Positions 3,000-33,155 of a stretch of 64,000 nucleotides of DNA are shown here, in pieces. The notes under the pieces are model-generated. The model saw only the letters and a program-made list of their open reading frames with translations. It ran no database searches and was not told the DNA's origin. How positions within the stretch are numbered: the stretch's first letter is position 1; every line of letters starts with the position of its first letter. The translations under genes and the position numbers were made by a program. This DNA is from Dentipellis sp. KUC8613 (taxonomy: Eukaryota; Basidiomycota; Agaricomycetes; Russulales; Hericiaceae), in assembly GCA_002286715.1 (NCBI GenBank), contig NSJX01000006.1, positions 372,001-436,000 of the forward strand. Reading direction: 5' to 3'.

Positions 3000-3099
3000 C
3001 CGGGGCCTCCCAACGCTTTGCGCCATCAGTCCTTCCCGACGCCCCCTACATTAGCTTGAGCCACACTCATCGACTCACCATCGACTCACCATCGACACC

Positions 3100-4632
3100 A
3101 TGAACTACTCCTCGCATTCCACTGCCACTCCCGCTTTCGTCAACACCAAACGTGTTGACTCGTCCTCGTTGACGCCCGCCCAACGCGACGCCCGCGCTTT
3201 CGCCATACTGCAAGCTCAGGTCGTCAGAAGTCGTCCTGTCGACACGCATGTAAGAAACCATGGAGGGGTTGACTATCAGACCGACACGGTGCGTACTGTC
3301 CCAGTCAGTTAATAGACACGTAGCTCATCCTCTTCTTCGTCGCAGAATTTCCAGCGTGACTTGGGGGAGGCGATGAGCGTGGACTGTACGCAATGGTTCA
3401 CGGCGTACACCACCCAGACCCCCGGCGACAACAAGCGTCTCGGCGGCCACACTTACGAACAACTTGATACCTTCAGTCACCAGACATACAACGTGAGTCC
3501 ATCGTCCTCATCTCATCGCACGAAACTGACTTTCCGCGACGCACAGGCTCAGGGCATGCTTCATCCCCAGCAGCCACCCCTCCCAGCCGTCCCCTTCCCC
3601 ACCCTCACCCCCGACCCCGCACCCTGGTACCCCCCGGGGTACATCGTCGCCCGCCCGTCGCCGGGCATCGCGCAACCCCGCCCAAGGGTCGCTGCTCGGC
3701 GCCATTGGCAGGCGGCCACCTTTGTCGCGCCGCCCCCAACCGCGGCCGGGTATGCTCTGCCGACGCGCAGTTCGGGCGCCGCGCTCTATGCGTCGAGCCA
3801 GGCGTCGACGCCATTACTCACCCGCTCGCCGGCGAGCGCGTCGCCCGCGTCGACGAATCTCTCGACGCCGACCAATGAGCTGCCCTTCAATATCGTGCCA
3901 GCGCGGGAGGAGCCGTCGCCCGAGCCCTTCTCCATCGAACCGTGGCAGGTGTCGACGGAGAGCTCGCTCGCGGCCTGGAACGGCGGGCCTGTCGCGCCGC
4001 CCACAGCAGAGCCATGGTATGCCTGGTTATCCTCAATGGACTTCTCGACGCTGCCTCTTGAGCCGACAAGGCCGAGGAAGCGGGCGTGGGCAGAGTTCGA
4101 TGAGGACCAGGGTGCAAGCAGCGGCGCCGACGAGACTCGGTCCAAGCGACCGAAAAGCTATGTAAGCTACGAAGGGGGGACCAGCGCCTTCGAGTATCCC
4201 GACGCCGGGATGCCGATGCAGGAGGCGACAATGGTCCCTCACCAGGAATCAGTAAAATCTTGGGGATCGGACATCGAGGAAGGTGTCCCCGACGCCGATG
4301 CTCAAGAGGGTTTCACCGATTTCGAGCAAGGGTCGCTTTGGCAGCCTATTGCCTCGGTATCGGGGGCCCACGGGGAGGTCTTCCGCTGGCAGTGCCCTGT
4401 TCCGATGTGCACGAAGGACTTCGCGCGAGTGGAGGATTGCAGCAGGCACTTCAAGGGTATCGCGCACAGGCCCATCACCAACCCGCCGACCTGCTACGGC
4501 TGCAACACCGTCTTCACACGCAAGGACGCCTTGAAGCGGCATTTGGCCTCGCCTCCGGACCCGACCTGTACCAACATACCTCCACCCCGGGAGGACGAGG
4601 AGGAGGGTGAACAGGCGGTGAACCAGGTGTGA
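3100..4632 (+). CDS. ZF-A: C2H2-type zinc-finger protein, paralog 1 of 3
   Basis: Three exons, 3100-3288, 3346-3492 and 3547-4632, give 473 residues. The second intron (54 nt) would also read in frame, but its GTGAGT/CACAG ends and its conservation in ZF-C argue for splicing. The N-terminus has a block shared with ZF-C (DARAFA, SRPV, THVRNHGGVDYQ), followed by a Pro/Ser-rich low-complexity middle. A basic patch RPRKRAW and RSKRPK looks like a bipartite nuclear signal. Two fingers sit at the C-terminus: residues 395-420 (Cys-x4-Cys, His-x5-His) and 428-452 (Cys-x2-Cys, His-x8-Cys). Probably a DNA-binding regulator (inference); no named family recognised. It heads the plus-strand unit ZF-A, TM-1, TM-2. 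Confidence 0.85.
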
Positions 4633-5450
4633 GAGGTCGGCGGAGTCGAAGGAGGGTAGTTGGGCGAGCGCGCTGAGGTCGGGATAGGTGGTCAGAGCGT
4701 CCGCCGTCGACGCGCAGCAGAAGTCGGCGGTACCAGCGCAGACGTCGGCGCTGGTGAGGACAAAGAACGCGCGTACTGATTTTCTTTCTCTTTTTCTCTC
4801 CTTTTCTATTTTTTCCGTCTCTTCTCTATGTCATCATCTCTCCTCGTGTACTCGTCTTATCGATCCCATCATCCGCGTTTCCGTGCGGCGCTAGACTCTA
4901 CATATATGTCACTATACTCTCTCGAGCATTCTACCTGGACTTTATACGGACTTACTCTGTAGAGCTACATACAATGTACCCTGCAATACATCGTGTATCT
5001 GATCTTCTATGTCTTCGTCTTCGTAACCGTTCTCGGCGTGATTGAAAAGTGCAGTGCTGAAAGCCGTGCAAGGGAGCTGACTTGCCCTTGAAGTCGTGTA
5101 AGGCCAGCAAGGCGTAGCGGAACGATCATGAGCTTCGGACGCAAAACTTAGTCGGGGCGGACAATGAACGGAAAGGCGTAATCAAGATTGCCGCCGCGGC
5201 GCGGAGATCTTTTCGTCTTCAATTCCCCGGGATCTTCCCTGAAATACGAACGCCTTCGCCAGCTAGACCCATGCTAAGCTTTGGCGAACGAGGCTCAATT
5301 TCCATCTACATACATCCCTGGTCACTGCATACGATATGACGATGGCAATGCTCAGACGCGCAATTAATCAGTATCACCATTCCTCCTGTACACACAGAGC
5401 GAATATAGCCAGACAGTTCACTCGTGCGCCGGGCCTGTGATCTAGGCTGT

Positions 5451-5468
5451 TTAGCTTTGCAAAGCTAA
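5451..5468. repeat. 18-bp perfect palindrome
   Basis: TTAGCTTTGCAAAGCTAA is its own reverse complement over all 18 bases, in a gene-free region. It could bind a dimeric regulator or be chance; no second copy was noticed. Confidence 0.7.
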
Positions 5469-6450: not shown

Positions 6451-6501
6451 AGGGCGTTGGTAGTCGCGGGGCGTTGGTAGTCGCAGGGCGTTGGTAGTAG
6501 C
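6451..6501. repeat. Short tandem repeat, three 17-bp units
   Basis: Three consecutive units of 17 bases with core GGGCGTTGGTAGTCGC. The copies differ only at the first base and, in the last copy, at one base near the end. Minisatellite-like and non-coding as far as can be seen. Confidence 0.85.
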
Positions 6502-7203: not shown

Positions 7204-8015
7204 ATGTCCGACAGCAATACGCGTTCCTTGTATGGACGTGAGTCATACTCCTTGAACGCGCGCTTTTAGATTACTTTTCTTACTTCATGCGCGTAGGTGC
7301 AGCTACATTTACTCCAGAAGGCGTCTGCGTTTCGCCGACGAGCCTGGCCGTTATCACTGTATCATGCTGCATCCTTTGGATTATCACACTCATCATAGTA
7401 TACTTGGTTCAAGAAGGAAGAATAACCAAGATCAGGCAAAGAGGTATAGGTGGGTGTATAATTGGTTCCCTGAGTCGCGAGGCGGCTAGATTCTCACTTC
7501 GAGCAGAGCCCTTCGTAATGCCACCACCTAGCGTTGCACTACCGCGTGTCCCGGAGAAAACGATGAGCCCTTCTCACTACCCTCCTGGACCCGGCACAAG
7601 CTCCAGCTCAAATTCGCATCGGGCAACAATCGCCACAAGTTCTCGCACAGGGCGTACAACTCGCTCTTCACGGGTGCCAGAAATTAGGGCTCCTGCAAGT
7701 CCTACAGCTTCCTCAGCATATATCGCCCGCGAAGCATTACCATCACCGTTCAATGCCCTCGGGCAAACGCTATATACGAGCGCACGGTCATCCGTTGCGT
7801 TGCAGTCATCGAATCTGCACGGATATTCGGAAAGCGTGAAGGATGAATCCTTTGACGTGTCCTCACGGAAGTCGTTACCACTGCCGTCAATTCAGCGAAG
7901 TGTAAGTGCTACCATGTGGACGATCGCTTGGAAGATGTCTGACGCAGCAGTGCTCTAGGATACTAGAACTTCGGGAAGGAGAACTCGGATGTCTATGCCG
8001 CGCAACCTGCTATAA
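7204..8015 (+). CDS. TM-1: single-pass membrane protein, divergent paralog
   Basis: Model of 211 residues: exons 7204-7237, 7297-7443, 7504-7901, 7959-8015. The ectodomain is only about 27 residues, followed by one hydrophobic segment (about residues 28-49) and the basic stretch ITKIRQR. The intron after that stretch is in phase 1, as in all seven paralogs. The cytosolic tail is Ser/Pro-rich but lacks the IPSDL motif and has no clear PPxY. No cleavable signal peptide, so the helix probably acts as an N-out anchor (inference). Only TM-1 and TM-2 carry an additional upstream phase-1 intron, so they form a subgroup. The first and last exons are the least certain parts. Function unknown. Confidence 0.6.
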
Positions 8016-8565
8016 TCAGCGACACGACGGTTGTAGAGTTGATTGCCAGAAGTTAATATCAGTTGTCAGTGTCCATCCGTGGTGACGTCTTCAATTTTCT
8101 GTGAAATATGCTGTCTGCCGTTGCACGTCCAAGGGCATGAGGTACGGTCGCCGCATGGGAAAACAAAGGGTACTCACGCGGCAAACTCTCAACTGCGTTG
8201 GCCGTTCTTTAAAGGATACAGACATGGACGGAAATGGCACGCAAAGCCATTTGACAGATGCACCAGCGAATCGCTGATGGTGCGCCGTTGTGGCATACGC
8301 AGACAGGCTGCCTTCTCTACGTCAGACGGCAGTGATGGCCAAGTCGATCGCGTCTCCATGATGAGTATAAAACACCAACTAACCATCTATCTTCGAGGAG
8401 GATCCGAGTTCTGATAACAGTGTGCATAGTCGCCGATATCTCTGCAACCCTCAACCCCCACCGTCGTGTATGCATCTCGACTCGGCCGCCCTTTCTCCCT
8501 GCCCCGCTGCCATTCGTTATACATCCTCCACACTCCTTGATTGACCTCTCAGGCTTCTGCATGTC
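8016..8565. other. Spacer between TM-1 and TM-2
   Basis: No gene supported. An open frame at 8043-8414 is best read as non-coding, because its most conserved piece (8236-8273) recurs upstream of other TM genes regardless of reading frame. A TATA-like GTATAAAAC lies near 8365. Confidence 0.5.
8236..8273 (+). promoter_or_regulatory. Shared upstream element of TM genes (TM-2 copy)
   Basis: Contains GACAGATGCACCAGCGAAT about 300 bases before TM-2. Related sequences lie before TM-7 (30123-30162), TM-6 (28259-28285), TM-3 (18991-19024), and with only the core kept before TM-4 (21231-21254) and TM-5 (26654-26679). The core CAGATG is an E-box type hexamer. A regulatory role is inferred from conservation. 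Confidence 0.55.
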
Positions 8566-9599
8566 ATGGCAGGGTTTGGCCCTCTGCCATCTTCACTTCT
8601 TACAGATCCAAGTGCGCCTTCCGGTCCTACATTATATGGTGCGTCCCTTCTGGTATGACTTCACTGTGTAATAGCCGTCTAATTTTGTTATAAACTCTAG
8701 CTATCGCTTCGTCAGACAACGTCGTCCCTCCTGATTCCCAGCCCGCAACGTCCGGCGGAGGACTTTACGTCTCTTTGGAGGTGATCATCGCCGTTATCGC
8801 GGCCGGTGGTGTAGCCTTCGTCGGCTTCCTGGTGATATTATTCCTCTATATTCGTAGCGCAAGAAGAATGCGGAAAATGGGTGCGCCTCTCCACGTGCTT
8901 GCAGACACGTCTGACAAAATTCTTATCGACGAATTTTCAGCAGCTCGTGTCTCACACACCGAGAATGCTCTCACATCTTTGCCAAAGCGCCCGGACAAGC
9001 GGCCCCCACCCATGGACCTAGTATCTCTGCACGCTGCTGGCTCCTACAGTCCCGTTCCCATTGAATCCCCGCGGCCAAACTCCATGCGCGCCGGCTCTCC
9101 GACACCCTCATCCAACATCTTGCCTCCTTCCCCAGAGCCCCATTCACCACGCTCAGCACACACTCATTCAATTTTCACTGCACAATCCTCTCACGGGACA
9201 CATTCGACCTTCGTCAGCGCGAGGTCAGCCCCAACGGCCGCACCAGAGGCTCAGCTCCGCTGGTCAGCGATTCCAAGCGATCTGCAAACTTTAGCGGAGC
9301 CGAGCCAAAGCCGATCGGCCTCTGTCAACACCAGACGACGCGGACACCGTGGCCCTCCAACGACTGAAAACCCGTCGCGGCCTCTCCCTGAGAGGCCGTC
9401 AAGACCGATGTCACAAAGGCAGCTGCAGCGGATGACGGGTAGCGAGTGGTCGGAGCTGCCATCACCACCCCCGCCTTACAATGGCAACGAGGCAACCGAG
9501 CCTATGCCCGATGATTTGCCACGGAAGATTGTGGACCCTACAGTGGCAGATGAACCAGAGACGGAGGCGGAAGCGGGAAATGTGGATGAGGTACTGTGA
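8566..9599 (+). CDS. TM-2: single-pass membrane protein with PPPY motif
   Basis: Exons 8566-8638, 8701-8880 and 8941-9599 give 303 residues. The 60-nt intron after the juxtamembrane stretch (ARRMRKM) would also read through in frame; it is placed by analogy with the paralogs, where splicing is required. Ectodomain about 49 residues, helix about 50-76, then a long Ser/Pro-rich cytosolic tail. The tail has AQLRWSAIPSDLQTLAE (IPSDL at 9270-9284), an Arg/Ser stretch, and PSPPPPYNG (PPPPY at 9465-9479), a canonical WW-domain ligand. The C-terminus is acidic, which is unlike the other copies. Second gene after ZF-A; converges on HEM2. Confidence 0.82.
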
Positions 9600-10203: not shown

Positions 10204-12144
<1,941 letters not shown>

Positions 12145-14923
12145 TCAATATCCCCGCCTAAGCCGCTCGTTCTCCTCCCGCAGGCGCTGATTCTCCTCTC
12201 TGAGCTCCCGCAGATCGCCCAGGTACTCGTCCATGGCGGCCCGCATCTCCTGGCGCCACGAGCGGCCCATGTGCAGGAGATCCAAATGCAACCCAACCAT
12301 CTCCGCCTTCGTCTCCTGCCTAAAGTCGATCATGGCATCCCGGATGATGGCGTGTAAAAGGCCTTGGGCACCCCCTTGAGGGCCCGGCGAGCCATGCGAC
12401 ACACTGTTGCGTAGTGGCGAAGCTGCCCATGCGGCACCCGAGACTCGGCGAGGTGTGACCTGCATGGACATCGACTTGCGATGTTTGTCGTCGACCTTCG
12501 CCTTCAGCTTCACATCCACCTCGTCTACTTCATCTTCCTCTTCGAGCTCCTCCAGATGGCCTTCATCATGCTCCTCGTCCTCTCCAGCCGCGAAGTCGAC
12601 CTTCTTCCCGTCCTCGCGCTCCTTCCCCTTCCCAGCATCGATCCACTTCTGCACCTCTGGCGTACTCAAGCCAAGCAAACCCTTCCCCTTCTTCCGCGGC
12701 TTATCACTATCCATGAGCGGGAATGGTGCCGCCTCTTTGATGAGCGAGGGCTCCGTCAGATCAGGCGACGGCGTCCGAACACTTTGCGAGCTTCCACCTC
12801 GAGACGCCTGCGCCCTGCCGTTCTCCGGCAAGCGGGGCAGGGGAGGTGCAGGCGAGCTTGTCCGCGCGACGGACGTGCGCGACGTCGATGCTCCGGAAAG
12901 AGTGCGCTGACGGCTCGATGTAGAGCTCATCGTGCGCGTGCTCGCCGTGGCACTCCCGCTGGAGGTCGTCCGCGAGATGGAGGATGTTGTCCGGGTACGC
13001 ACGGGAGGCGCAATGACAGCTGAGATGGTGCCAAGCCCAGAATCCGTGCGCGAAGTCGCTGAAATTGTACGAGTCCGCGGCGGGAGAGTAGATGTCGGGC
13101 TCTTCGCGGTGAGGCTAGACGGGCTCTTCGGTGCGGAAATCGTGCGAATGCGTGGACTCAAGTGAGGAGACAACGCACGGCTAGCACTAGCTTTGCCGGG
13201 GCTTCGAGTGGTTGCGGATAAAGTCCTTTCACGAGGGGGCATGGGGAGGAGTTTGCTTGCGTCGTCCGCATTTGCGGAGGCACCGGCGGTGGTGGAGGTC
13301 TTCGTAGCTGTCTTTGTGCGAGACAACGTAGTCCGTGACGAAGGCGGTCGCGAAAGGGGTGATTTCGCGGGCGGAGGCGGGACTGTGCCTTCTTCATCCT
13401 TCTCTGACTGCTTATTTGCAGACATTCGGCTTCTTAGGCTGGCAGTCCGCGTGCGGCGCGCGGGGAGCAGACCATCTTCCTTTTTCCCTGCATAGAGACA
13501 TCTCAGCAAGCGTTTCGTCGGAAAGTAGCTCACGTGCGTACCTGAATCGTCACCTGTAGCAGCCGTTTCGCTTGTCTTCTTGAGAGGAGGCTTCTTGTTC
13601 ATCGTCGAAGTGGAGGAAGTCAAGCGCTTTCTTGCAGGTGGGTCTACCTTGGGTGTTCCGAGAGATGATACCCTGGCTTTCGTTATAGCAACAGTTGGGG
13701 TGGCCTTGCTAGGCGGCGACAACAAACTGTCCATCTTCGAACTTTTGCTATCCGGGGTGGGCCCGGCCACCGAAGCCCGCATAGAAGGTCTTCGCGGTGT
13801 ATTCACATCTTGCGGTGTGAGTGGTTTGCCGCCGGCAAAAGACCTCATGGTAGTGTCAATCTTCGCTTTTTTCTAGACGGATATCAGTCTTTAAGTCAGG
13901 AGCAGATTCATGGACAGCGCTCACAGTAATCGCGAGGCTTTCTACTCTATATCCGTGCTCACCAATATCGATGGTCTTCGGTGGCTCAACATTTCGCAGG
14001 GTCTGCACCAAGAGCTTGCCGGTCTCTGTGCCAACATACAGGGTGGCCCCGTCCGCAGAAAACACTAAAGAAGTAACTGGTACTTTATAGCTGAAGGATC
14101 GTATACGTCTATCAAGCATAATCAGCCTCCATCCTCGTAACAGCGAGTTTATATGGCAAACGCACCCTTGCTGTTTATCAAGATCCACAAGGCCCACATA
14201 TCCCCCACTACATGCGACTGCCAGCAGCGTCTTGCTATAAGGGCTACAAGCAATAGCAACAATATCCCCCGTAGCAGCTTCCCCCATGGGGATCATGCGC
14301 ACAGGCGCGGCCGGGCGCGTAACATCGTACACCACAAGTTGCTTTCCGATGCCCAAAAACAGGCGGATGCGCGAATGTGGATGCAGCACGCAGGCTGAGA
14401 TACGCTGTCCGTCCTCAATCGGCAGACCGCGCAGCACCGTGTGCGATCCGAGCGACAGATTATGCACGAGCACGGCGCCTGCGGACGCGGTGACAAGAAG
14501 CGTGCCGTCGTTGGACAGAGATAGGGCCGATAGCGGGCCCGTATCGGGCGCGCCGGCAGGGGGCGCGATGGTCTGCACGACCTTCGACGTCGCGCTCTGC
14601 GACGCCGAATGTTCAAGGATGTGGACGTTGCTGCCAGCAGCGAAGATGAGCGTGCCTTTATCCTTCGCCAGCAGGCTGGCGATGGGCTCGTCCGCACTGT
14701 CTGCGGGCGTATGTACATGCACGGTCTTGATGAGCTCCCCGAGGGCGTCGTAGCGAGTGATGGTGTGCGAGGATGCTATGTACAGCGATGCGCCATCGGG
14801 GGACCAGGTGCTGGTGGTAGGTGGGGATGTGAGTTCGGAAGTTGGCGGGAGAGAAGAGGGCCCGCGACGGAGGGTGGAGGGGTCGATGAGGGTGAGATGG
14901 CCAGTCGTGGAGACGGCCAACAT
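12145..14923 (-). CDS. NEDD1: NEDD1/GCP-WD-like gamma-tubulin complex targeting factor
   Basis: Three exons, 14923-13925, 13872-13542 and 13487-12145, give 890 residues. The first joins an N-terminal WD40 half (repeat-like pieces such as STWSPDGASLYIAS, SALSLSNDGTLLVTAS, SLVFSADGATLYVGT) to a long Ser/Thr/Arg-rich disordered middle through a 52-nt phase-0 intron. The C-terminus is helical: IIRDAMIDFRQETKAEMVG, then a coiled coil ending in REENQRLREENERL. WD40 plus this C-terminal helix is the architecture of NEDD1, which attaches the gamma-tubulin ring complex to spindle poles and microtubules. The link is by architecture and the C-terminal motif; a search against metazoan NEDD1 would settle it. 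Confidence 0.75.
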
Positions 14924-15224
14924 TGTCGTTGATTTTTCGTCGTCGTTTGGGACGACGTCGAGGAAGGGGAAGGCAAGAGACTGGTTCGATCGCTGTTGGA
15001 ATTTCGGAATTCGAACTTGACGCGTACCTAGAACGCGTCCATCACGTGACTGTCTTGTTCCTTATTGTCGCCCCTTTCGAGCCTCGTCTCCTTGCTTGGT
15101 GGACATCCAGAGCAGTCATATATTGAGCGAAACAAGTGCAAACGAGTCGAACAGGAAGAAATACACGTAGGATAGCGACGATATAATAAAACAATACGGA
15201 GAGAAACCAGTAACACGCCTAAGC

Positions 15225-17296
15225 TTACTCTCTGTCATCTGCTTTCGCAACCTGTTGCCTCTTCCGAGACCCACCGCTGCGACAGATAAAAAAAATCAGC
15301 ACACGAAAAAGAGGGACGATAAACAAGAACTCACACTTCCATGTCCAAGCCTCTCTTCCTACCACTCTTCGCTTCGTCCAAGAACTTGTCCACCCCGAAC
15401 ACATCTGATGTGTCCTTCTCGAACTGCACAGGGCCTTCCCTGACCTCCTGATCCCTTGCGCCTTCAAACCCAGCTGGCGCCTGACCGAGCCCAAACCGAT
15501 CGTTGTCCAACGCGGCCGTGATACCCTCCTCGGTACCGCCACCATAGCTCTCGTCGTTACCAGCTTCAATGTTGCCTCTTGCCTTGTAGATAGCAGCAGC
15601 AGCGGTGGAGCCATGGAACAAAGGCTTGTCGTAGAGCCCATACGACTCATCGTCCCCAAAGTTGCCCGACAGCGACTCCTGGTTGAACAGCCGCGAGTCC
15701 AGCATGGACTCCTTCGACATCGTAGGCTTCGCGAGACCGAGCGCGATCTTCTCCGAGATATCGCGGTTCTGCTGCCGAGCGAGCATCTTGGCGCGCTGCT
15801 CCGTGCCCATGTTCGACATGCGCATTTCGCGTTCGCGCTCACGACGCTTCTCCGCACGCATCTCGTCGCGGACCTTGGCTGCTTCCTCCTCTTCGTCCTC
15901 AGAACCAGACTCCGAGCCACTGCCGCTCTCACTGCCATACGCCGCGAGCGAAGACTTCATCGCAGCGCCACCTTCTGCAGAGGGCCGTGGCGCGATACCG
16001 GCACGCTCCTCGCGGGCGCGCTGAGCCAGCAAGCGCAGGTTCTCCTCCTTCTGTGCCTTCTCCTTTTGTGCGAGCTTCTGCTGCATGAGTGCACGTTGCC
16101 GAACTTCCTCGCGTGAATGCCTATCAGCGATGAAAAGAGCTTCGGAGAACTTGGCGAAGTTGTCGTTGATAGTGACCTGTCATCCAAGAACCATGAGTTT
16201 AGGAGGTTGATGAGTTGGATAAAAACGCACATCTTGCAAGCCGCGACCGTCTGCTGCCAAACGCTTATCCAGAGGAATAGTGAAACCCTTGTTGTTCTTC
16301 CAGTTAGAGATACACGGCGGAATCATCCACTCCTTCTGCTCCTGCGCAGTCGCCTTTCGCGGTGGACTCCTGAGCACAGGCGGGGGCGGACTCGGCGGGC
16401 CCCTCGGGATCTTCTTGTGCTTGAAGCGTGGCGGCTCGAGAGGATCCTCCACAACCTCGGTCATCTTGATAATCCTCTGCTGCATCCCATTGCTGCCATT
16501 CTGCTGCCCGGGTGTGTAGCGGATGAACGACGTCTTGCCCTGGCTATCGGGCACGTTTTTCGGCTGTGCGGCCTTGATCTTGCCATTCACCAGCTTCTCG
16601 AGTGCCGCGCGTGTTTTCTCGGTTGTCGCCTGCACCTCTTCCTCAGAGGGCCGCTCCATCTCTCGCGCGCTGTCGTCGAGGTCTTTGCGGTTGTGCAGGG
16701 GAACGAGGTCTTTGAACTGCGACTGAACGATCTTGCCGTGACGTTGGCCCTGCTGGGCAATAGCATCGTAGCGAACGTTGCCTTCGCTATCGACTTGGAG
16801 AGCAAGGGTGTTCCCAGACGAGGCCTATGATTGGTGAGTCCCACTAGCCGCCGCGTCAAGGTTTGGAAACGCACCTTTTTACGGCCCATATCCAAAGGAT
16901 ACTGCGCGACATGGCATTCAGGGTAAGCACCACCATCACCTTGAGAACTGTTCAATACACAATTATTAGAAGCACAAAAGGTGACGCACCGTAGTCCTCT
17001 TGTGATGTCGGCTTCCATCCTCTACGTTGTCCGTACGCAGGAGCAGGTGTCCGAAGAACGACCGACTGGGAAGTCGACGGGGCCGCCTGAGGTTGCTGGT
17101 AATCGTCCTCCTCTTCCGATACTGCTGGGGCATGAATGGGCGCGGGGAGCGCTCTGAATGATGATCAGTATTTGGACCTTCTAAGCAACAGAGAGTTCCG
17201 GTGTGTCACTCGTCCAGCCGCTTTGTGAGGCAGACAAACGAGACCACAAAACTCGTAGTAGGCAGATACTCACGCGGCAAGAGCTGTGGCCATCAT
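15225..17296 (-). CDS. PRP45: SNW-domain splicing factor Prp45/SKIP
   Basis: Component of the activated spliceosome (NineTeen-associated), also a transcription co-regulator in animals. Six exons: 17296-17274, 17153-16990, 16939-16875, 16824-16231, 16176-15335, 15276-15225, total 579 residues. Diagnostic pieces are YGQRRGWKPTSQEDYGDGG, AYPECHVAQYPLDMGRKK, TSFIRYTPGQQNGS, KNNKGFTIPLDKRLAADGRG and the Glu/Arg-rich EEVRQRALMQQKLAQ helix. The first exon encodes only MMATALAA and is chosen from the Met and a clean GTGAGT donor. About 300 bases before the NEDD1-like gene in the same orientation. Confidence 0.96.
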
Positions 17297-20978: not shown

Positions 20979-22014
20979 CCGGGATGCGAATCTGTCATGG
21001 ACAGCGGAGATAGCAAAGATATAGAACGAATGAGAAGAGTCCTACACACCATGAAGGGTATGCCAGACACGAAGTTATACGTGGATTATTCTTGCTGTTA
21101 TATCAGCCCAATTCCTTCTTGGAAATGCACAGGTGGAACTGATGCACATCAAGGAGACACGAAGATGACCAAATTCGATGGCCGTGCAGCGTCTGGACAT
21201 TATAATCGCGGATCGTTAGTGGATGTAGAAGCGCATCTGTTGGACGCCTTGGCGTTCCGATTATACGGAAAACCTAAAACGACAGTGAGTGTTGTACGCC
21301 ATGTGCTGTTCAAGTTTGAGTCCTTAGAATTGCTAATGTGAACGGCCCCAGCCCGTCGAAAACGGCATCTATACATATTCATGAATACTGGCAATCAATA
21401 TCAGCTATTGACAACTGACTCACCCTAGTTCCGGGATCTGAACAGCATCAGCTGAATCAACGCTGAACCGGACGTCTGGAAGGCCGAATATATACAAAGC
21501 TATCGTATCATCATGTTTGTCTTTGAGCTTGCTTCGATGGATCCGGAACATTGAGTCGGTCTGACTCCCGAGACTAGAACATCGACCGGAACAGTCACTG
21601 ACAGCATTCGTCCTTGTGAATCGGTAGCTGATTGGAACAGAAGCCATCGAAGGCCGCAAAATGCGCGCGACGCAGCGGGGCCTACAAACACTGTATCAGC
21701 GCCTGCATCAGGTAACACTGGCAGGATGTCACGGAATCAGACCTCGCTGCTGAAGGTTGTCAAGCTGTGAAGCGTGAAGCTAGAGGTTGTCGTTGACTTT
21801 GGAAAGGAGTCTTCGGCGAGAGCAGGACACCATCATATGTGCATGGCCGTTGAGAACATTGAACATTCGTTCAGGTGGTGGCAGCGGCCGTCAACAGGAC
21901 CGGTTGCTGGTACGCGTACATACATTCATGATTGAGCCTTCGTCGTCGAGCTGGCATAGAAAAAGAGCCTCAAGTTGGTACGTACATGTACAGACGCCTC
22001 ATGCAGATCGGAGG
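20979..22014. other. Spacer between TM-4 and the ZF-B flank
   Basis: Upstream region of TM-4, including a core CAGATG element copy at 21231-21254. No gene supported on either strand. Confidence 0.5.
21231..21254 (-). promoter_or_regulatory. Shared upstream element of TM genes (TM-4 copy, core only)
   Basis: Minus-strand CCAACAGATGCGC about 260 bases before TM-4. Only the centre of the element seen before TM-2, TM-3, TM-6 and TM-7 is retained. Confidence 0.4.
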
Positions 22015-22632: not shown

Positions 22633-24290
22633 TCATTTCTGGTTCTTCTTGAGGCAAGTTTGCTCGTGCCTTCTTACGGCGTCTTTGCGGACGAATTTCT
22701 TCTCGCAGACCGTGCAGGACAGCTTCTGCGCATTGGGGTCATGCTCACTCCGCCAGTGCCTCTTGAAGCTGGTCTGGTGCTTGTATACCTTGCCGCAGTC
22801 TGGACACAGTAACACTGTCGCCTCTCCCCTCCTCTTGGACCCCGATTCCGAAGCAAGCGGCCGTGTACTCGACCCTCGCCCGAAATCAGTGGACCCCTCT
22901 CGGGCATCGCAGTCGGGAACATATTCCCCGACAGGGAGACCCCGAGATTTCACTGTTGAACGGTGAGGGACCATTGCCGCCTCTTGCATCGGTATCCCGG
23001 CAGAGGAATACCCTACGGCGCAGGACCCCTCTTCATAGCTCTGATAGCATCTTGGTCGCTTGGAGCGATTGGCGCCGGCGCTCCCATTCGCAGCCTGCTC
23101 GTTGTCGTCGTCGGACGTCAGCTTCCTCTTCCTTGGCCTCGACTGGCCAGAAGGCGGCGGGGTCGGGGAAGGCGGGGAAGATATTTGCGCCGTGCTTTGG
23201 CCGGGCGCGCCATCCCAGCTGGCAGGAGAACTCTCAGTTGGCGGATGCCACTGATAAACATGGAGTGTGTCCGCATCGACACAGCCGGGGCTTTGCAAAG
23301 AGCCGAAGCTCGCCTTCGCGCTCTCTGGTGTCGCGAGAATCCCCACACCGGTCGATGTGCTGTCGATGGAAACCGAGCGGGTGAGCTCTGGCAATGACAC
23401 TTGGCTCGACCTGCGGGACATCACATTCAGGTCTGTGTAATGCCGAGCATTCGCAGGCGGCCCCTGCAGATGCTGTGGCATATACATCCTCGTGTTGGTG
23501 TAGGCGTGAATAGGCGCAGCATTGATGTGCGGCGGGAGCAGACCCTGCCCTTGATACTGAGGCGCACTCCTCCTGGCCGACGGCACGACACCATGTGGCA
23601 ACTGACTTCTTTGTTGTTGCCATCCCTGCAAAGCACGCCAGTTGTTGTGGGCGATGATGGATGGTTGACGGGCCGCGATGAACCCCGGTTGGTAGGAGTA
23701 TTGTGGTGGCGGGTAGGGCGGAGGAGGGTAAAAGGGCAGCCGTTGTGGCGTCGGGCTCGCGGGCATCCACGGAGTCTGTGGACATCGCAAGGTCAGTTTC
23801 GCTCAATGAGGTGAGAATGCCTAGCTAACATCTATGTGAGATGGCCCTTGTTGAGAGAGATGCCCCTGGGCCACAGGAGTATGGTAGCCAACGGGTGGCA
23901 CATATGCCATGCCACTGGGAGACGTGCTGTTGGTGGCGAGCGCGCCGGTCTGTGTGGTATGATGCGATATGCTCCACTGCTCGTCAACGCTCCATGGTGT
24001 AAGGCTCGAGAGCTGCATCATTTCTTGTTGGAAGAGCTGCCGCGAAGAATTGGCTCAGTTACGCCACAGTGAGCCACTCGCAATGACAATATCCGCACCA
24101 TGTCGGTCATGTAATCATAGCCTACATTGTTGCTAATATGCATGTCGACAGGACTACAATCAACGGGCTGAGGCCCTGGTGTGCCAGAAATGTCGGCGCC
24201 GTGCTGAGAGGGCGGCAGCGAAGACGGCGACGACGAGGCAACGCGAGTAATGTTGACTAAAGCCGGAGTGGAATGTGAGTATTGAGTCAT
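22633..24290 (-). CDS. ZF-B: C2H2 zinc-finger protein, paralog 2 of 3
   Basis: Exons 24290-24099, 24036-23830 and 23775-22633 give 513 residues. The same three-exon plan as ZF-A, with the second exon starting LFQQEMM where ZF-A has NFQRDLG. Pro/Gln/Tyr-rich middle, basic RPRKRKL and RSKRPR, then two fingers: CPDCGKVYKHQTSFKRH (a classical Cys-x2-Cys, His-x4-His) and CTVCEKKFVRKDAVRRH with a terminal Cys. The first finger has classical spacing, whereas ZF-A and ZF-C have Cys-x4-Cys and His-x5-His, so DNA recognition may differ. The SSAGIPMQEAAMVPH block is shared with the other two. Heads the unit with TM-4 and TM-3. Confidence 0.83.
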
Positions 24291-25518: not shown

Positions 25519-26428
25519 CTAAGCCCTCCACCGTTCGCCTGCAGCAGCTTCGATCCTCTGCGCGGCGTCGTCGGGCATCGGTTCTAGCATCCCATTGACA
25601 TCGTCAGGTGGGGACTGTACCGGCAGATGCGACCAATCGCTTCCTGTCGTCTGCTGCGACTGCCTCTGCGATGTCGTTCGTGATGCCCAGTGGGGAAGGT
25701 GATATGGTGGGATTATGAGCGAACTGTGCGACTGATATCGACTGTTGCTGCGAGACGTCGATCGACTCAAGCTCGTCCCTGTGATGGTCTGCAGGTCGCT
25801 CGGGATTGCCGATATCAGGAAGTGGCTCTCCGAGTTATATGAGATGCCAGACATCGTGCTCATGGAGGTCGACTGTGTGCGCTCAGAGTGCGCCTTCGAT
25901 GAACGGGACTCTGTGGAACGTGGCAGAATGCCGGAAGAAGGCGTCGGCGAGTCGGCTGCACCTGGGCGAATGACGGGGTTGTAAGACATGACGGATACTG
26001 CGATGCAGAGGAAACAATCGTGAGGACCATTTCAATGATAGACGCAATTGCAGATAGGTACCTCGATGCTGCTTCTGTGTTCTGTAACGAACGTAGAATA
26101 TCACAATTCCCATCAACCCAATCAAGGCCCCTACTGCGGCGACAGCAATTATCATCCTAGAAGATCTATGTTGTCCACCAGTAGACGTCGGAGTCTCAGA
26201 GGCTGGAGGGGTCAAGGTAGTTGTCAAGCCAGCAAAGGACAGAGGTGTCGAACTAACAGGCGGTAGAGGAGTTAGATTGACGGAGGATAGAGGAACCGAT
26301 CCGACAGAAGGCAGATCAGTCGGCATGTCTGCAACCAACAGAGAGCCAGTTGGAGGGTCGCCAAATGCGCCCGTCGACCCACCGGCAATCCCTGCGCCTG
26401 TTGGAGTGACATCGGGTGAATTGGACAT
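25519..26428 (-). CDS. TM-5: single-pass membrane protein, PPxY lost
   Basis: Exons 26428-26062 and 25997-25519, 281 residues. The start is the Met of MSNSPDVTPTGAG, aligned with MPALSDVFPT of TM-6; an in-frame upstream Met is less likely because that part lies beyond where TM-6 and TM-5 proteins align. Ectodomain about 91 residues, helix about 92-114, then YRTQKQHR and the phase-1 intron. The tail has SAIPSDLQTITGT (IPSDL at 25792-25806) and SRSTSRSNSR. Where relatives have PPAYD this copy reads SPPDDVNG (about 25595-25615), so the aromatic residue of the PY motif is gone. Ends in RIEAAAGERWRA. Sister of TM-6, including promoter and 3' flank. Confidence 0.82.
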
Positions 26429-27179: not shown

Positions 27180-28052
27180 TCATCGTCCGCCTGCCGGTGC
27201 TACGATCTTCCACACCGATTTGTCCGATGCTGATTCGTCTATCCCATGACCATCGTATGCCGGAGGCCGCATTTGCAGATACGACCAACCGCTTCCCGTC
27301 CCCCGCAGCAACTGCGTCTGTGATGTCGTTCGTAACGGCCAATCAGGAAGGGGATGTTGTGGAATTCTGGATGGACTGTGCGTTCGATGCCGACTGTTAC
27401 TGCGAGACGTCGACGGTGTTCCTGTTATGGTCTGCAGATCGCTCGGGATCGCCGACATCATGAGTCGAGTCTCCGAATTGTATGAGACACCAGACATCGT
27501 GCTCATGGTGGTCGTTTGTGTACGTATTGAGTACGCTTTTGATGTATGGGTTTCCGAGGTATGCGGTAGAATGTCGGAGGAAGGCGTCGGAGAGTCGCCC
27601 ACACCCGGCCGAACGACGGAACTGGGAGTCGTAGATTCTATAGTGTGTAGGGCAATCGAAGCCAACGGTCAGCGTGTTTTCGGCGATAAATTCGAATGCG
27701 GATACGCACCTTCCCGCCGCTTTTGTGCTCTGTGACGAATGCAATATACAGTGATTCCCACTAGGCTAATGAAGCTCGAAATTCCTACAACGAGGACGGC
27801 AATTATCACCCTGGTGGATAATTGTGACCCGCCGGTAGGTACGGGAGTTTGAGAGGAAAGAGGAGAGCCTGTAGGAGGGAAGGCGGTTGTCGAAGCCGCA
27901 GAGGGCAGAGCCGGCCCGTTTGTATTAGCGGCGCTTACGACCAGCAGAGAGCCAGTTATAGAAGCAGGAAAGAGCACTGAAGAGTCTATCACCGTCCCAC
28001 TGACTCCTGAGGTCATCGGAAGAGTAGGAAAGACATCGGACAGCGCGGGCAT
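27180..28052 (-). CDS. TM-6: single-pass membrane protein with PPAY motif
   Basis: Exons 28052-27710 and 27637-27180, 266 residues. Ectodomain about 81 residues rich in Ser/Thr/Pro, helix about 82-105, then RHRAQKRRE and the phase-1 intron. The tail includes PTPSSDILP, ETRLMMSAIPSDLQTITGT (IPSDL at 27435-27449), STSRSNSR and MRPPAYDGHG (PPAY at 27255-27266), ending WKIVAPAGGR. Shortest ectodomain in the right-hand block. TM-5 and TM-6 are the closest pair and probably a recent tandem duplication. Confidence 0.83.
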
Positions 28053-28846
28053 GGCCAACGTATGCTGGTGGGAGGTTTGTAAGGCGCAAAGATGCAGGCG
28101 TACTGTGCTTTTCGTGAACACCGTTTGGACGCCCCTTATAGATGCAAAGCAGGAGTTCTATACTCGTCAAGAGGCCACGTTCAGCATGATCAACCTTGAA
28201 GATCCGATGTAACGAGTGTGCCTTGGCTATATATTCTTCAGTTGCACAGAGTATCAGCATTCGCCAGTGCATCTGCCGGTTCGAGAGGTTTGAAGGCTGT
28301 TTCTGGCCCATGAAAGCATGCCCGTGTAAACAGCATCTGAACTGCCGAGTAAGTGTTGTTGGTCCCCATATACTGATCGCACTTCACGTACCTTAGATGT
28401 TCCACGCCGTTTCCCCTTATGCAAGCCTCTTTCCTCTCTTGTCAGTCCGACGCATACGAGCGTCAAAAAAGGGTTCTTCGCGTGTGCTTTGGACGTATCT
28501 GTATAGCTGAGACAATTGAAACTCGTATGGGTATTTTCCACGTGAAGGAGAAGCGAAAGGAAGGAAGGATGATAATACGTGTGCCCTTCCTCATCTTCCT
28601 CTACGTTGACCAGGTTGAGACCACCAACTCCCCTTAATCCGATACCATCAGAACCAGGCCAACAGAATCCGGTGGCGATCTGATAGATCGCCTTCCAATT
28701 CTCGTACACACGCACCGCCAGACCCTGTCTTGATGGCAAATCCTCATCGCCACCATGAAAATCACCACATCGCATCCCATCGGCGTCTACACTCCGGTCT
28801 TCTACTGTTTGCCTACTGCTGCTTCGATTTTGCTTGAGATCGCGGG
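28053..28846. other. Spacer between TM-6 and TM-7
   Basis: TM-6 promoter region (TATA-like CTATAAGG near 28136-28143; upstream element 28259-28285) and the TM-7 3' flank. The latter includes 28802-28846, an in-frame continuation of TM-7 beyond its stop, described in the findings. The long minus-strand frame 28254-29429 is a shadow. Confidence 0.5.
28259..28285 (-). promoter_or_regulatory. Shared upstream element of TM genes (TM-6 copy)
   Basis: Minus-strand CGGCAGATGCACTGGCGAAT about 210-230 bases before TM-6; nearly identical to the TM-2 copy in the GCAGATGCAC and GCGAAT parts. Confidence 0.5.
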
Positions 28847-29967
28847 TCACTGAGCAGGGGATTGTGCCATCCCTGTGCGGCTGTAAGGCGGGAGCGACCC
28901 CGGCACAAGCGTACACTCGCTGTCCGTCGTCCTCTGTGACAACCTCTGCGATCTGGGCGACGGCGGTCGTCCTGATAAGGGGCGCGCCAGGCGTCCAGGT
29001 AGACTGCGAGTCTCGAAACGACCATAATTGCCAAAAAGCGACGGGTTTGTATCTGCTGCAGCCGACGAAGTGCCGGACATCGCCGCTGAACGAAGTAGGG
29101 TTTCCCAGGGGGCGGAAGGGCCATAGGCCACACCCGTGAAGGCTGGAGCAATATGCCCTGAGTAAGCCTGCACGGAATGGGGCTCCGAAGAGGATGGTGG
29201 TGCGTCGGGGACATCGGCTGGCAAATTGTCTGAATACACGTTGGGGGACGAGTTCGGACTGTAGGAAGCGACGGCCACTGAAGTGCGTGCGGCTGAGCGA
29301 ATTTGATGAGTGTTTTATCAAAGGATAGCATGAATGCAAGCTGACACATACCCCGTTGCTGCACTTCTCTCCTACGACGAATGTAGAAGATCGATATGGC
29401 CAGCCAACCGATGACGACCACAGTCCCAATTATAATCATACCAATCAATTCCCCTGAGGAAAGACCAAGCCTAGGAGTAGACGCCGGAGGTTGGGAAGTT
29501 TGGGCAGCTGAGATAGTCCTGGTAGGAAAGGCTGAGATAGTCCAAGGCCCTATGGCTGAGGCGGGAGAAGGGAGAGAAGAGAAAGAAGAAGCAGTAGTAG
29601 TAGTAGGGGCAGACGACGGAGAGGAGAGTACTGGAAAGTATGTTACAACAGAAGTTATAACAGATACCACAGGAGTAGGAGGTGTGTCGCCAAAGATTAT
29701 TGAATCAGGGCTATGTGTATCAGAGGGTGTTGAAGAGGGGGGGCCCGGAAGAGAGGTTGCGGAAGGAGAAGTCGGCAAGAGGGACGACTGCAAAATGGTT
29801 TCTGAATCTACGGCCGTACCCGTCGAAATAGATGCGGAGATTGACTCCATTGGAGGGAGGGACCGAACTGTAGCTAACGAGCGTCTTAATGCATAATGAG
29901 CGGGAGGAGTGGCGGAGGCAGACACCATCGGAGCAGAGGTGCTTGCGTCACGGTTGTTGCTGGCCAC
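28847..29967 (-). CDS. TM-7: single-pass membrane protein, longest ectodomain, early stop
   Basis: Exons 29967-29352 and 29277-28847, 348 residues. Ectodomain about 173 residues, dominated by Ser/Thr/Pro; helix about 174-196; then RRRREVQQR and the phase-1 intron (about 74 nt). The tail lacks a recognisable IPSDL motif but keeps GSLPPYSRTG (LPPY at 28883-28894), in the position of the PPxY of relatives. The frame stops at 28847-28849; the next codons read PAISSKIEAAVGKQ before a second stop at 28802-28804, which matches the C-terminal end of TM-3 and TM-5. The stop therefore looks like a recent nonsense change removing the last 14 family residues. First TM gene after ZF-C. Confidence 0.8.
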
Positions 29968-31084
29968 GAAGATATAGGCGAACTATGTGCGCTGCTGTCA
30001 GAACTCAGCTGGCCCTCCAAGATATTTAGATGCAGTCTTATACCTACAAGAACGTCCCATTTCGCGCGGCCAACGGGGAGGGAGGTATACTGTCCCCATA
30101 TCGCGTCGTATTGATTCATCACCGTCAATTCGCCAGCACATCTGTCAGATGACTTTGCGTGCCTTTGTTGCCCGTGCGGGGATCCTTGAAACAGTACATG
30201 CAGCGGCCAAGCTAGTATCCGTCTTTCCGTGAGAGGTTTGCTACCTTCCCATTGCTGACCGCGTTTCAAGCCCTGAACGTGTTGTCATGGCAGCCTGGAG
30301 ATATGCAGCAAACAACTTCACCGAGTAAACATCAGTCAGTCGGCAACATGCTCTGAGACTCACTGGATGGTTTGAGACGCATTGGTGTATATGGAAGCTC
30401 GATCCTCACTCCGGAATTTCCATTATCCGAGTCTGATACGTAGCACCGTTCAGCGTTTCAACTACTCGCACAACTTGTCTGTGATAGCACTCACATGTCG
30501 CTCGCAGGGAATCCCTCGCGTGTTCCGAATCTCGGTGCAGGATCCAACGCGTACGAAGCCGAGTGGGTCACAGCGGTTTCCTCCATGTCCTGTGGAAACG
30601 GTCCAGGAAAGTTTCGAAAGTCAAGGAGTCCAGCACGATGGTCTTGATTGACCTTGCTATGATTCAGATGTCCCGCCGTGGCGAACTCGAACTCGGAGTC
30701 AGCGCCAGCTATGAGCTATCGAGACTCGAGTAACCGTAGCGTGGCTCAGGCTTGCTGCTGTAGATGAATGTGTGAATGCGTCGCTCAGAGGTGCAGCCAA
30801 ATGTGATACTCACTAGTGTCAACACTGCAGAGAGCCATGTGTTAGTATTCTCAATAGAGCAGAGCGGTAGTCCTCATGCATGCTGCTGGTCTGGGGATGA
30901 TACCCTCGATGTTACGGTCGACTGGCGAGAACTAGCTTCCTTTCAGACTCCCAATTATCCTTTACTCGACTCTGAACATGCTTGGAACGTGGCATATTAT
31001 CAAGGCGGGCGCGAGCACAAGATGTAGCTGGAGAAGAGGTTCGTATTACGGGGAAGACTCCGCTAGTGGAGAGTTGGGACGAAC
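29968..31084. other. Spacer between TM-7 and the ZF-C flank
   Basis: TM-7 upstream region with a good copy of the shared element (30123-30162). Short frames at 30382-31027 carry no motif. No gene supported. Confidence 0.5.
30123..30162 (-). promoter_or_regulatory. Shared upstream element of TM genes (TM-7 copy)
   Basis: Minus-strand GGCACGCAAAGTCATCTGAC followed by AGATGTGCTGGCGAAT, about 160-195 bases before TM-7. With the TM-2 copy it matches over almost 40 bases. Confidence 0.55.
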
Positions 31085-31616
31085 TTGAAAAGATCTCCGC
31101 GCCGCGGCGGTCTCTGTCACGCTCTTCCGTTCATTGTCCGCCCTGACTGTTTTGTCTCCGAACCTCACACTCGTTCCGCTGGTTTGCTGACCTTACACGA
31201 CATCAAGAGTGTCCAGCTTCCTTATGAACCGTGCTGCACTTTGCAGACGCCGACAGCACGCGGTTACGAAGACGAAGACAGTGAGCATGAGATACTGGTC
31301 GCGATGCACTGCAGAGTACACTGTACACTACAAAGTAAGTCCGTGTAAATTGGGGGAACATAGTGACATATGCATATGTAGAGTCTAGCGCCGCACAGCA
31401 ACGCGAACGATGGGATCGATAAGATGGGTACACGAGGAGAGATGACGACATAGAGAGGAGACGGAAAACATAGAAAAGGAGAGAAAAGAGAGAAAAAATA
31501 GTACGTGCGTTCTTTATCCTCTTCAGCACCGACGTCTACTCTGGTGCCGCCGACTCCTGCTACGCGTCGACGGCCGACCAGCCACCCAACCACCTTCCTT
31601 CGACTCTGCCGACCTC

Positions 31617-33155
31617 TCACACCCCACCCTCCACCCCTTCACCCTCGTCCCCGCCCTCTTCGGGCTCCCTGCGCGGAGGCACGGAGGTGCAGGTCGGGTC
31701 TAGAGACGACTCCACGTGCCGCTTCAAGGCGTCCTTGCGCGTGAAGACCTTGTTACAGCCGTAGCACGCTGGCGGGTTGGTGACGGGCCTGTGCGCCATA
31801 CCCTTGAAGTGCCGGTTCCAATCCTCGACCCGCGCGAATGTCTGCGTGCACTCCCCAATTGGGCACAACCAATAGGTCTTCTCCCCCTGCGCCCCCGATC
31901 CCGAGGCAATAGGCCGCCAAAGCGACCCTTGCTCGAAATTGGTAAAATTCTCTCGGGCGTCACTGTCGGGAACACCTTCCCCGACGTCATGAACCCGAGA
32001 GTTTATCAGTTGACAGTGAGGGACCGTTGCGTCCCCTTGTGTCGGCATCCCGACGTCGGGATACTCGACGACGCTGGTCCCTGCTTCGTAGTCTATATCG
32101 ATTCTCGGTCGCTTGGGCCGAGAATCGGTGGTGCTGCCGCTTGCACCCTGGTCTTCATCGACCTCCTCCCACGCCCGCTTCTTCGGCCTCACTGGCTCAG
32201 GGGGCGACATGAAGAACGCCGGGAACAACGAGGCATACCATGGCTCCGCCGCGACCGACGCGACGGGCCTCCCGTTCCAGGCGGCGAGCGAGTTCTCCGT
32301 CGACACCTGCCACGGTTCGATGGAGAAAGGCTCGGGCGACGGTTCCTCCCGCGCCGGCGCGACGTTGAAGAGCGCCTCGTTGGTCGGCGTCAGGAGCTTT
32401 GTCGACCCAGGCGACGCGCTCGCTGGCGAGCGGGTGAGCAGCGCCGTCGACGCCTGGCTCGACGCATAGGCGGCCGCGCCTGAGCTGCGCGTCGGCATGG
32501 CGCGCCCGGCGGTGGTTGAGGGAGGCGCGACCAAGGTGGCCGCCTGCCAGTGGTGCTGAGTAGCAGCCCTTGGGCAGGGGTGCGCGATGCCCAGTGGCGG
32601 GCAGGCGGCGATGTACCCCGGCGGGTACCAGGGCGCGGGGGTGGGGGTGGGGAAGGGGGTGGAAGGGAGGGGTGGCTGCAGAAACTGATGCATGCCCTGC
32701 GCCTGTGCGTTGCGGAAAGTCAGTCTCGCGCGATGATACGAGGACGATAGACTCACGTTGTATGCCTGGTGACCTGCGCTGAAGGTATCGACTTGTTCAT
32801 ACCCGTGGCCACCGAAGAGCTTGCTGTCGCCGGGGAGCGCGCCAGTCTGGGTGGCATCGAGCGGGTACCACTGAGTCGGGTCGCCGCTCATCGCCTCCCT
32901 CAGGTCACGTTGGAAGTTCTGCGACGAAGAAGAGGATGAGCTACGTGTCTATCAACTGACTGGGACAGTACGCACCGTGTCGCTTTGATAGTCAACCCCT
33001 CCATGGTTTCTTACATGCGTGTTGACAGGACGACTCTCGACGAGCTGGGCTCGCAGGGTAGCGAAGGCGCGGGCGTCGCGTTCGGCGGGCGACAGGTTGG
33101 CACGTTTGACGTTGCCGAACACGGGAGCGGGAGAGGAACGCAAGTACTGGTTCAT
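31617..33155 (-). CDS. ZF-C: C2H2-type zinc-finger protein, paralog 3 of 3
   Basis: Exons 33155-32976, 32918-32757 and 32702-31617, 475 residues. Clearly the closest relative of ZF-A: shared DARAFATL, SRPVNTHVRNHGGVDYQ, RKRAW-like RPKKRAWEEVDEDQGAS and RPKRPR patches, FEQGSLWRPIASGSGA, then fingers WLCPIGECTQTFARVED (Cys-x4-Cys, His-x5-His) and CYGCNKVFTRKDALKRH with a downstream Cys. Differences from ZF-A concentrate in the middle and in the linker before the fingers. Heads the unit with TM-7, TM-6 and TM-5. Confidence 0.85.

Follow-up and report, generated by a model that had tools for sequence, protein, structure and literature searches.

The window that we have analyzed, a 64,000-nt stretch of DNA from Dentipellis sp. 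KUC8613, contains three zinc-finger (ZF) genes and seven membrane-protein (TM) genes, interleaved around three housekeeping genes:

3100..4632 (+): ZF-A, two-finger protein, 473 aa; spliced model, exons 3100-3288, 3346-3492, 3547-4632
7204..8015 (+): TM-1, single-pass membrane protein of a separate family, 212 aa; last exon inferred
8566..9599 (+): TM-2, 303 aa, PY motif PPPY; spliced model
10204..16824 (-): core with HEM2 (ALAD), a WD40-type gene ("NEDD1") and PRP45 (SKIP/SNW); from Pfam, outer limits approximate
17806..18743 (-): TM-3, 294 aa, PY motif PPAY; spliced model
19859..20955 (-): TM-4, PY motif PPAY; spliced model, first exon (20955-20922) tentative
22633..24290 (-): ZF-B, 513 aa; spliced model, exons 24290-24099, 24036-23830, 23775-22633
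25519..26428 (-): TM-5, 281 aa, without PY motif, tandem sister of TM-6; spliced model
27180..28052 (-): TM-6, 266 aa, PY motif PPAY; spliced model
28847..29928 (-): TM-7, 340 aa, LPPY motif, most divergent member; spliced model
31617..33155 (-): ZF-C, 475 aa; spliced model, exons 33155-32976, 32918-32757, 32702-31617

In transcription order, these genes are ZF-A, TM-1, TM-2 on the (+) strand, and ZF-C, TM-7, TM-6, TM-5, then ZF-B, TM-4, TM-3 on the (-) strand. A preliminary description had placed the ten ZF and TM genes in this order, on these strands and at these coordinates, and we confirm it: the spliced models are open frames at those places, except that the start of TM-4 and the end of TM-1 are inferred. 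The models also bear out that each unit has a ZF gene first, followed by two or three TM genes on the same strand. This rule is satisfied by 4 of the 120 placements of three ZF genes among ten slots; the alternating order by itself is weak evidence for more than chance. The clustering of ZF and TM genes is real: it goes beyond chance because strong matches of both families are confined to this locus. The 9.9 kb to the left of the window contain no match below E 0.1. Judging by titles and the beginnings of abstracts, we have found no publication about this locus.

The inferred ends of TM-4 and TM-1, together with database models of ZF-A (P0001, DENSPDRAFT_597631) and TM-2 which are shorter than ours, might suggest an artefact of gene models or assembly. 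This is extremely improbable: independent database models agree over the full length with ZF-B (P0004, DENSPDRAFT_597922) and TM-6 (P0007), TM-5 is contained in P0005, which has a longer N-terminus (all three compared by eye), and orthologues are found in D. fragilis. The two arms of an inverted repeat differ by about 20%, too much for a misassembled duplicate.

Of the core genes, HEM2 (ALAD) and PRP45 (SKIP/SNW) are well above the Pfam cut-off. The middle gene has just WD40-type matches, one of ten barely above the cut-off (ANAPC4_WD40, 23.2 against 22.9 bits), so "NEDD1" is only the name given by the earlier reader. The idea of two paralogous families is not confirmed. Six of the TM genes (TM-2 to TM-7) form one family, to which TM-1 is not detectably related: the best BLASTP match has E 0.67, and a single hhalign comparison gives a probability of 9% (E 0.0037) for 29 columns over the helix. 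They do have a common architecture, a short N-terminus, one helix, basic residues and a phase-1 intron just behind. Each of the seven proteins has one hydrophobic segment, with basic residues commoner behind the helix than before it. In the AlphaFold model of the TM-3 orthologue (alignment of four sequences), only the helix is confident. No Pfam family is found above the cut-off in TM-2, TM-3, TM-6, TM-7, P0003, P0005, P0006, P0007 or TM-8, the proteins scanned. The same scans give no match to domains of fungal wall sensors of the Wsc or Mid2 type.

A PY motif is found in five of the six TM-2-type tails (TM-2, TM-3, TM-4, TM-6 and TM-7) and in the D. fragilis TM-3, but not in TM-5, TM-1 or the TM-1 paralogue TM-8 (by eye for TM-8). 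The D. fragilis TM-2 model ends before the position of the motif. According to PMC5578492, yeast Rcr1/Rcr2 and animal Commissureless/PRRG4 are short single-pass proteins with PPxY or LPxY motifs, poorly conserved outside the motif. The TM proteins are similar: a single helix, an L/PPxY in the predicted cytosolic tail and low conservation outside the motif. The Pfam scans give no sequence homology to Rcr1/Rcr2. The TM proteins also differ in having no Pfam match, a long Ser/Thr/Pro-rich N-terminus, one motif at a fixed place and six copies within a single cluster.

ZF-C is 68% identical to ZF-A in amino acids. The zf-C2H2 scan (PF00096, cut-off 25.2 bits) took in ZF-A and ZF-B: ZF-B is above the cut-off (35.5 bits), and the best finger of ZF-A is under it (22.1 bits). 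ZF-B has 33 sequence matches to structures, among them the two-finger DNA-binding proteins tramtrack (2drp) and ADR1 (2adr). The AlphaFold model of ZF-B (alignment of two sequences) is confident only in the two fingers, with residues 452-513 modelled as two beta-beta-alpha units, as in tramtrack and ADR1. The differences are that the rest of the ZF protein has no known domain and that ZF-A is under the Pfam cut-off. The ZF proteins are putative C2H2 transcription factors, with DNA binding predicted from these matches. The three genes also have in common a 3' flank:

4719..4961 (+): conserved 3' flank of ZF-A, common to ZF-B (22252-22497) and ZF-C; from sequence match

The ZF-A and ZF-B copies are 79% identical (E 1e-50), and a genome search with 4640-5270 gives four matches, all in the 3' flanks of the three ZF genes. 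The ZF-A copy shows no fold signal for an RNA structure (z 0.06), and no Rfam family reaches the gathering score in the window.

At the sensitivity used, the 34-Mb genome has no TM-2-type gene and no full-length ZF relative outside the locus. Four finger-only ZF relatives are found elsewhere, with no TM match within their loci of about 3.2 kb. Three weak matches to the TM family (C2, C80 and C107, E 1e-5 to 0.07) contain stops; compared with the ZF proteins, TM-2 to TM-7 and the D. fragilis TM-1/TM-2 proteins, their short loci give no TM match at E 0.01. ZF and TM genes are also neighbours at a second locus, separated from the cluster by 173 kb: an intact TM-1 paralogue (TM-8) is followed on its strand, after 1.8 kb, by a ZF relic. 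The order here is TM then ZF. Local growth alone explains this linkage beyond one place less well. This locus also has 78 bp from the 5' flank of ZF-C. A TM-1 query did not find TM-8, nor a TM-8 query TM-1; divergent copies at other places in the genome can thus go undetected. Protein searches also miss existing relatives: a ZF-C query did not return ZF-B, and another search did not return TM-3 itself.

In D. fragilis, the first part of EVG20_g6666 (P0003) matches TM-1 with 85% identity over 195 aa, and the second part of this protein is the TM-2 orthologue; the TM-3 orthologue is EVG20_g6664 (P0006, 69%). All are on one 22-kb contig (22,086 bases), on which one gene (g6665) lies between EVG20_g6664 and EVG20_g6666. 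In the TM tree, the D. fragilis proteins group with TM-2 (100/99) and with TM-3 (87/91), and TM-3 and TM-4 form a clade (97/99), so the split between TM-2 and TM-3 is older than the species split. No ZF protein has been found among the predicted proteins of D. fragilis; this absence is weak, because the same search also missed ZF-B, which the database contains. No relatives of the ZF and TM genes outside the genus were found at the sensitivity used.

ZF-A and ZF-C are part of a large inverted repeat:

2384..5265 (+): left arm of the 2.9-kb inverted repeat, ZF-A with both flanks; from alignment with the right arm
31025..33858 (-): right arm, ZF-C with both flanks; from alignment with the left arm
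3229..3347 (+), against 33035-32917: conversion-like tract, end of exon 1 and intron 1; from mismatch-penalty scan

The arms are 77% identical over 2953 columns (80.6% over 2773 paired columns). They contain the ZF genes with flanks of about 0.7 and 0.6 kb, and no TM genes. On both sides of ZF-A, identity just outside the repeat is 0.56 and 0.43, against about 0.80 inside. A set of 30 random pairs has a mean of 0.463, somewhat high because at least one overlapping pair is among them (maximum 1.0). A mobile-element origin was discarded: the ZF-A flanks match other ZF copies only, and the 78-bp piece at the second locus is the sole further trace. Synonymous divergence between ZF-A and ZF-C (dS 0.37) is far below that of TM-2 against TM-5, TM-6 and TM-7 (1.6-3.2, near saturation). 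A duplication of whole units is therefore unsupported, unless gene conversion has acted on the ZF genes.

Conversion could in fact make ZF-A and ZF-C look young and hide an older duplication, in which case whole ZF-TM units would have been arrayed in tandem long ago. The conversion-like tract fits this: at a mismatch penalty of 10, the arms differ there at 4 of 119 columns, and none of 1000 permutations does as well, against 1 and 2 of 1000 when the penalty is 6 and 15. The longest identical run between the arms is not significant by itself (149 of 1000). The two units on the right point the same way, the pairs TM-3/4 and TM-5/6 each fall within one unit, as such a history would allow, and TM-8 with its ZF relic is a second pair. 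Nevertheless, we consider an old array unlikely. Exons and flanks of the two arms are about equally similar (identity 0.71-0.82; introns 0.98 and 0.89), as a single event would leave them, and the similarity ends before TM-1; the second pair has the opposite order.

Upstream of several TM genes we have detected a 19-nt element:

8242..8260 (+): CAAAGNCRTYYGACAGATG upstream of TM-2, zero mismatches
19001..19019 (-): CAAAGNCRTYYGACAGATG upstream of TM-3, zero mismatches
30139..30157 (-): CAAAGNCRTYYGACAGATG upstream of TM-7, zero mismatches
21234..21252 (-): degenerate CAAAGNCRTYYGACAGATG upstream of TM-4, two mismatches, a level also reached at 12 other places
28259..28277 (-): neighbouring half only (GGCAGATGCACTGGCGAAT) upstream of TM-6; from sequence comparison

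These three exact matches are the only ones in the genome. With two mismatches there are 13 further matches, the TM-4 copy among them; a reversed control pattern has 7 in total. The 9-mers common to the upstream regions are about as many as in shuffled regions (10 six-of-seven words, against 3, 3, 7 and 8 in four shuffles, one of which has a seven-of-seven word), so it is the longer match that supports the element.

The preliminary description suggested a functional module. In a true module, the ZF proteins would bind this element and thereby govern expression of the TM genes behind it, and units would be kept together because their parts cooperate. We regard this as a tentative possibility. 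A ZF gene stands first in every run, and ZF/TM linkage does recur at the second locus. But the element is clear in just three or four of the six TM-2-type genes and is not found at TM-1, and paralogues have promoters in common by descent. The ZF and TM duplications differ in age, TM-8 is intact beside a ZF relic which follows it instead of preceding it, and the four finger-only relatives have no TM match alongside. That no ZF protein is reported for D. fragilis adds a weak argument.

Another suggestion was regulated surface variation. On this reading, the TM proteins would be a switchable set of variable surface proteins, whose region the inverted repeat would flip or exchange. The N-terminal part does vary from 51 to 160 residues among TM-2 to TM-7, and the repeat has its conversion-like tract, but the repeat arms carry ZF genes, not TM genes. 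Moreover, dN is lower than dS in all 15 TM pairs. The two orthologue pairs give no consistent excess of change in the N-terminal part over the tail, with 34/51 against 115/155 in TM-2, slightly for the idea, and 73/107 against 101/157 in TM-3, slightly against it. There is no clear support, and we consider this explanation very unlikely.

In our opinion, with a probability of about 0.5, the cluster is restricted to the genus, evolves fast and has grown by local duplication; control of its TM genes by the ZF proteins is possible. Duplication on both sides of the core would have built it, and ZF-A would have given rise to ZF-C (or the reverse) by inverted copying of a 2.9-kb piece without TM genes; short tracts may still pass between the arms. 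We propose that ZF and TM genes adjoin mainly because they occupy the same duplication-prone stretch, and we infer that there is no obligate functional link between them. The cluster looks more like the result of repeated local duplication than a proven regulatory module. The ZF products would be nuclear proteins that bind DNA through two fingers and have a long disordered part. In TM-2 to TM-7, an N-terminus rich in Ser/Thr/Pro would face the outside and a disordered tail would lie within the cell, where the PY motif most likely binds the WW domains of a Nedd4/Rsp5-type ubiquitin ligase. Such binding would allow these proteins to act, as we propose, as membrane anchors or adaptors that control the turnover of other surface proteins.

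Lineage-specific tandem gene families occur in fungi. This cluster resembles them in its local copies, unequal ages and fast divergence; it differs in that unrelated families are interleaved and a relic of the same pairing is found elsewhere. The PY motif in TM-2-type tails, the 19-nt element and the conserved ZF 3' flank are new. The locus might hold a young, self-contained circuit of one genus: two-finger proteins acting through the element would control PY-motif adaptors for ubiquitin-dependent turnover of surface proteins, while the inverted repeat would homogenise the regulator copies and could flip the core. Such a circuit is speculative and improbable. Genus-limited genes are common in fungal genomes, but a testable role is seldom proposed for them. 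This cluster offers ten candidates that can be approached through the PY motif, the inverted repeat, the conserved 3' flank and an upstream element specific to the locus. If the ZF and TM genes are functionally linked, a regulator and its targets would have arisen together within one genus.

The cluster is real, and the preliminary description had read its gene order correctly from raw sequence. All ten zinc-finger (ZF) and single-pass membrane-protein (TM) genes were given spliced models, which follow the order ZF-A, TM-1, TM-2 on the plus strand and, read from the right, ZF-C, TM-7, TM-6, TM-5, ZF-B, TM-4, TM-3 on the minus strand. Three core genes lie between the two groups, all on the minus strand: HEM2, a WD40-type gene (NEDD1 was the name given to it in that description) and PRP45. 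Frames at 34567-36265 (minus strand), adjoining ZF-C, resemble by eye an arrestin-type adaptor with PY-like motifs; the part scanned, 34567-35388, has no Pfam match. A KH-domain protein is found at 38751-39698.

The ZF-A, ZF-B and ZF-C proteins have 473, 513 and 475 amino acids. ZF-A and ZF-C are 68% identical, and each shares 39–40% with ZF-B. In the structure model of ZF-B the two fingers are ordered and the remainder is disordered; sequence matches to known structures show a resemblance of its fingers to two-finger DNA-binding domains. The genome searched has 34,145,342 bases in 171 contigs, 1,050,357 of them in C128, the contig of the cluster. The last exon of ZF-A has eight matches in it. 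Three are the ZF genes, four lie elsewhere and cover the fingers only, and one is a broken piece on C128. Beyond these, whole ZF-B gives just weak finger matches elsewhere.

Two paralogous families had been proposed, which does not hold for the TM genes: TM-2 to TM-7 form one family (22–49% identity), and TM-1 stands apart by sequence. None of the TM proteins scanned reaches the Pfam cut-off. With TM-5, TM-2, TM-3 and TM-7 as the queries of this family, strong genome matches are confined to the window, with weak matches containing stops on contigs C2, C80 and C107; TM-1, searched separately, finds nothing but itself at E 0.1. Among 5.8 billion proteins, a TM-2 query yields a single D. fragilis protein besides the short model of TM-2, and nothing more. 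The sole return for ZF-C, among the matches listed, is a short ZF-A model, in a search which missed ZF-B, present in the same database according to a joined-query search. The latter finds at least four proteins, three from C128 and one from D. fragilis, and is also incomplete: TM-3 itself is absent from its matches. Since these searches miss existing relatives, the apparent restriction of both families to the genus reads as none found outside it, at the sensitivity of the searches made.

The preliminary description also suggested that whole units had been duplicated together. ZF-A and ZF-C lie in an inverted repeat, 2384-5265 versus 33858-31025 (77% over 2953 columns), each arm of which contains one ZF gene and no TM gene. 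Identity is fairly even within the arms (5' flank 0.80, exons 0.71–0.82, 3' flank 0.81) and is 0.56 and 0.43 immediately outside. By a simple counting method, dS is 0.37 for ZF-A/ZF-C and 1.0–1.1 for ZF-B versus either; TM values, which are near saturation, are 0.81 for TM-5/TM-6, 1.32 for TM-3/TM-4 and 1.3–3.2 for the remaining pairs. Therefore, unless conversion overwrote an older divergence, the ZF-A/ZF-C duplication took no TM genes along, and co-duplication of whole units is not supported. Intron 1 of ZF-A and ZF-C is 0.98 identical (56/57) and intron 2 is 0.89 (54 columns), versus about 80% in exons. A 119-column tract around intron 1 (3229-3347 versus 32917-33035) has four mismatches, unusual by permutation at three of four settings. 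This tract may reflect gene conversion, or else selection on the stretch or a functional intron.

Non-coding sequence is also conserved. Blocks in the 3' flank are shared by all three ZF genes:

4719-4961 and 5136-5213: ZF-A 3' flank
22252-22497 and 22017-22095: ZF-B 3' flank
31360-31496: ZF-C 3' flank

ZF-A and ZF-B are 79% identical here over 253 columns, a better agreement than at their synonymous sites, 55% of which differ. Over the complete 3' flank ZF-A is nearer to ZF-B (0.70) than ZF-C is (0.59); the 5' flank of ZF-A and ZF-B reaches merely 0.52. What is conserved is the sequence rather than a strong fold, because the ZF-A copy folds no better than shuffles. Upstream of TM-2, TM-3 and TM-7 we find CAAAGNCRTYYGACAGATG, and these are its three exact matches genome-wide; there are none at one mismatch and 13 at two, one of them at TM-4. 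TM-6 has a neighbouring half, and in the alignment TM-5 shows only a degenerate stretch. As paralogues, the TM promoters share ancestry; what is notable is that the element was kept while its surroundings diverged.

D. fragilis has related TM proteins. EVG20_g6666 corresponds to fused TM-1 and TM-2 orthologues (85% to TM-1 over 195 amino acids, 166/226 paired residues with TM-2), and EVG20_g6664 is the TM-3 orthologue (69%); both are on one contig of 22,086 bases. In the tree they group with TM-2 (100/99) and with TM-3 (87/91, within a TM-3/TM-4 clade of 97/99). The TM-2/TM-3 split therefore predates the species split, and the TM genes were already neighbours then. A single gene number, g6665, separates the two orthologues, whereas in KUC8613 the three core genes lie there: either the gene model is a fused one or the order differs. 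Among the matches listed in a limited search of predicted proteins, no ZF protein or TM-5/TM-6 orthologue was found for D. fragilis.

The broken ZF piece on C128 led to a second locus (L079, C128:576600-586500), 173 kb from the cluster:

C128:578168-578824 (L079:1569-2225): TM-8, an intact TM-1 paralogue with an uninterrupted 199 amino acid frame
C128:580614-582104 (L079:4015-5505): ZF relic with stops, same strand, 1.8 kb downstream of TM-8

TM-8 has an intron at the TM-1 position and a TM-1-like tail. Aligned with TM-1 it scores 144, compared with a mean of 41.6 for shuffled sequences (z 13.4), and a BLAST search of this stretch gives E 4e-5. The relic retains its parts in the correct order. 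A block resembling a promoter (78 columns, 73%) comes first, followed by a 25-base piece of exon 1 (88%), then the inner motif, which is 41% identical to ZF-A (E 8e-8), and last a finger part that matches weakly (32%, E 0.085). By eye, the likely frame meets a stop after six codons, and another stop lies within the inner motif. The rest of the stretch from 569.6 to 592.5 kb gives no match to either kind of gene, ZF or TM, at E below 0.05. A protein kinase domain fragment, recognized by eye, lies behind the relic (L079:6322-6720, minus strand).

A single hydrophobic segment is present in every protein from TM-1 to TM-7, with basic residues more numerous behind it than before it, which suggests N outside and C inside. 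One L/PPxY motif is present in five of the six TM-2-type tails (TM-2 to TM-7) and in the D. fragilis TM-3 tail. Such motifs of yeast Rcr1 and Commissureless/PRRG4 bind Rsp5/Nedd4-type ligases with WW domains, and both kinds of protein alter the levels of other cell-surface proteins, with some effects independent of the ligase (PMC5578492). The likeliest mode of action is that TM-2-type tails would bind such a ligase; no homology to these proteins was found. The idea of ZF regulators and TM surface proteins as one functional module is possible. One new finding favours it: the pair at L079, with the TM gene first and then the ZF, supports linkage of the two kinds of gene. Several points speak against the module, among them intact TM-8 beside a dead ZF, which argues against strict dependence. 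ZF proteins may possibly control the TM genes.
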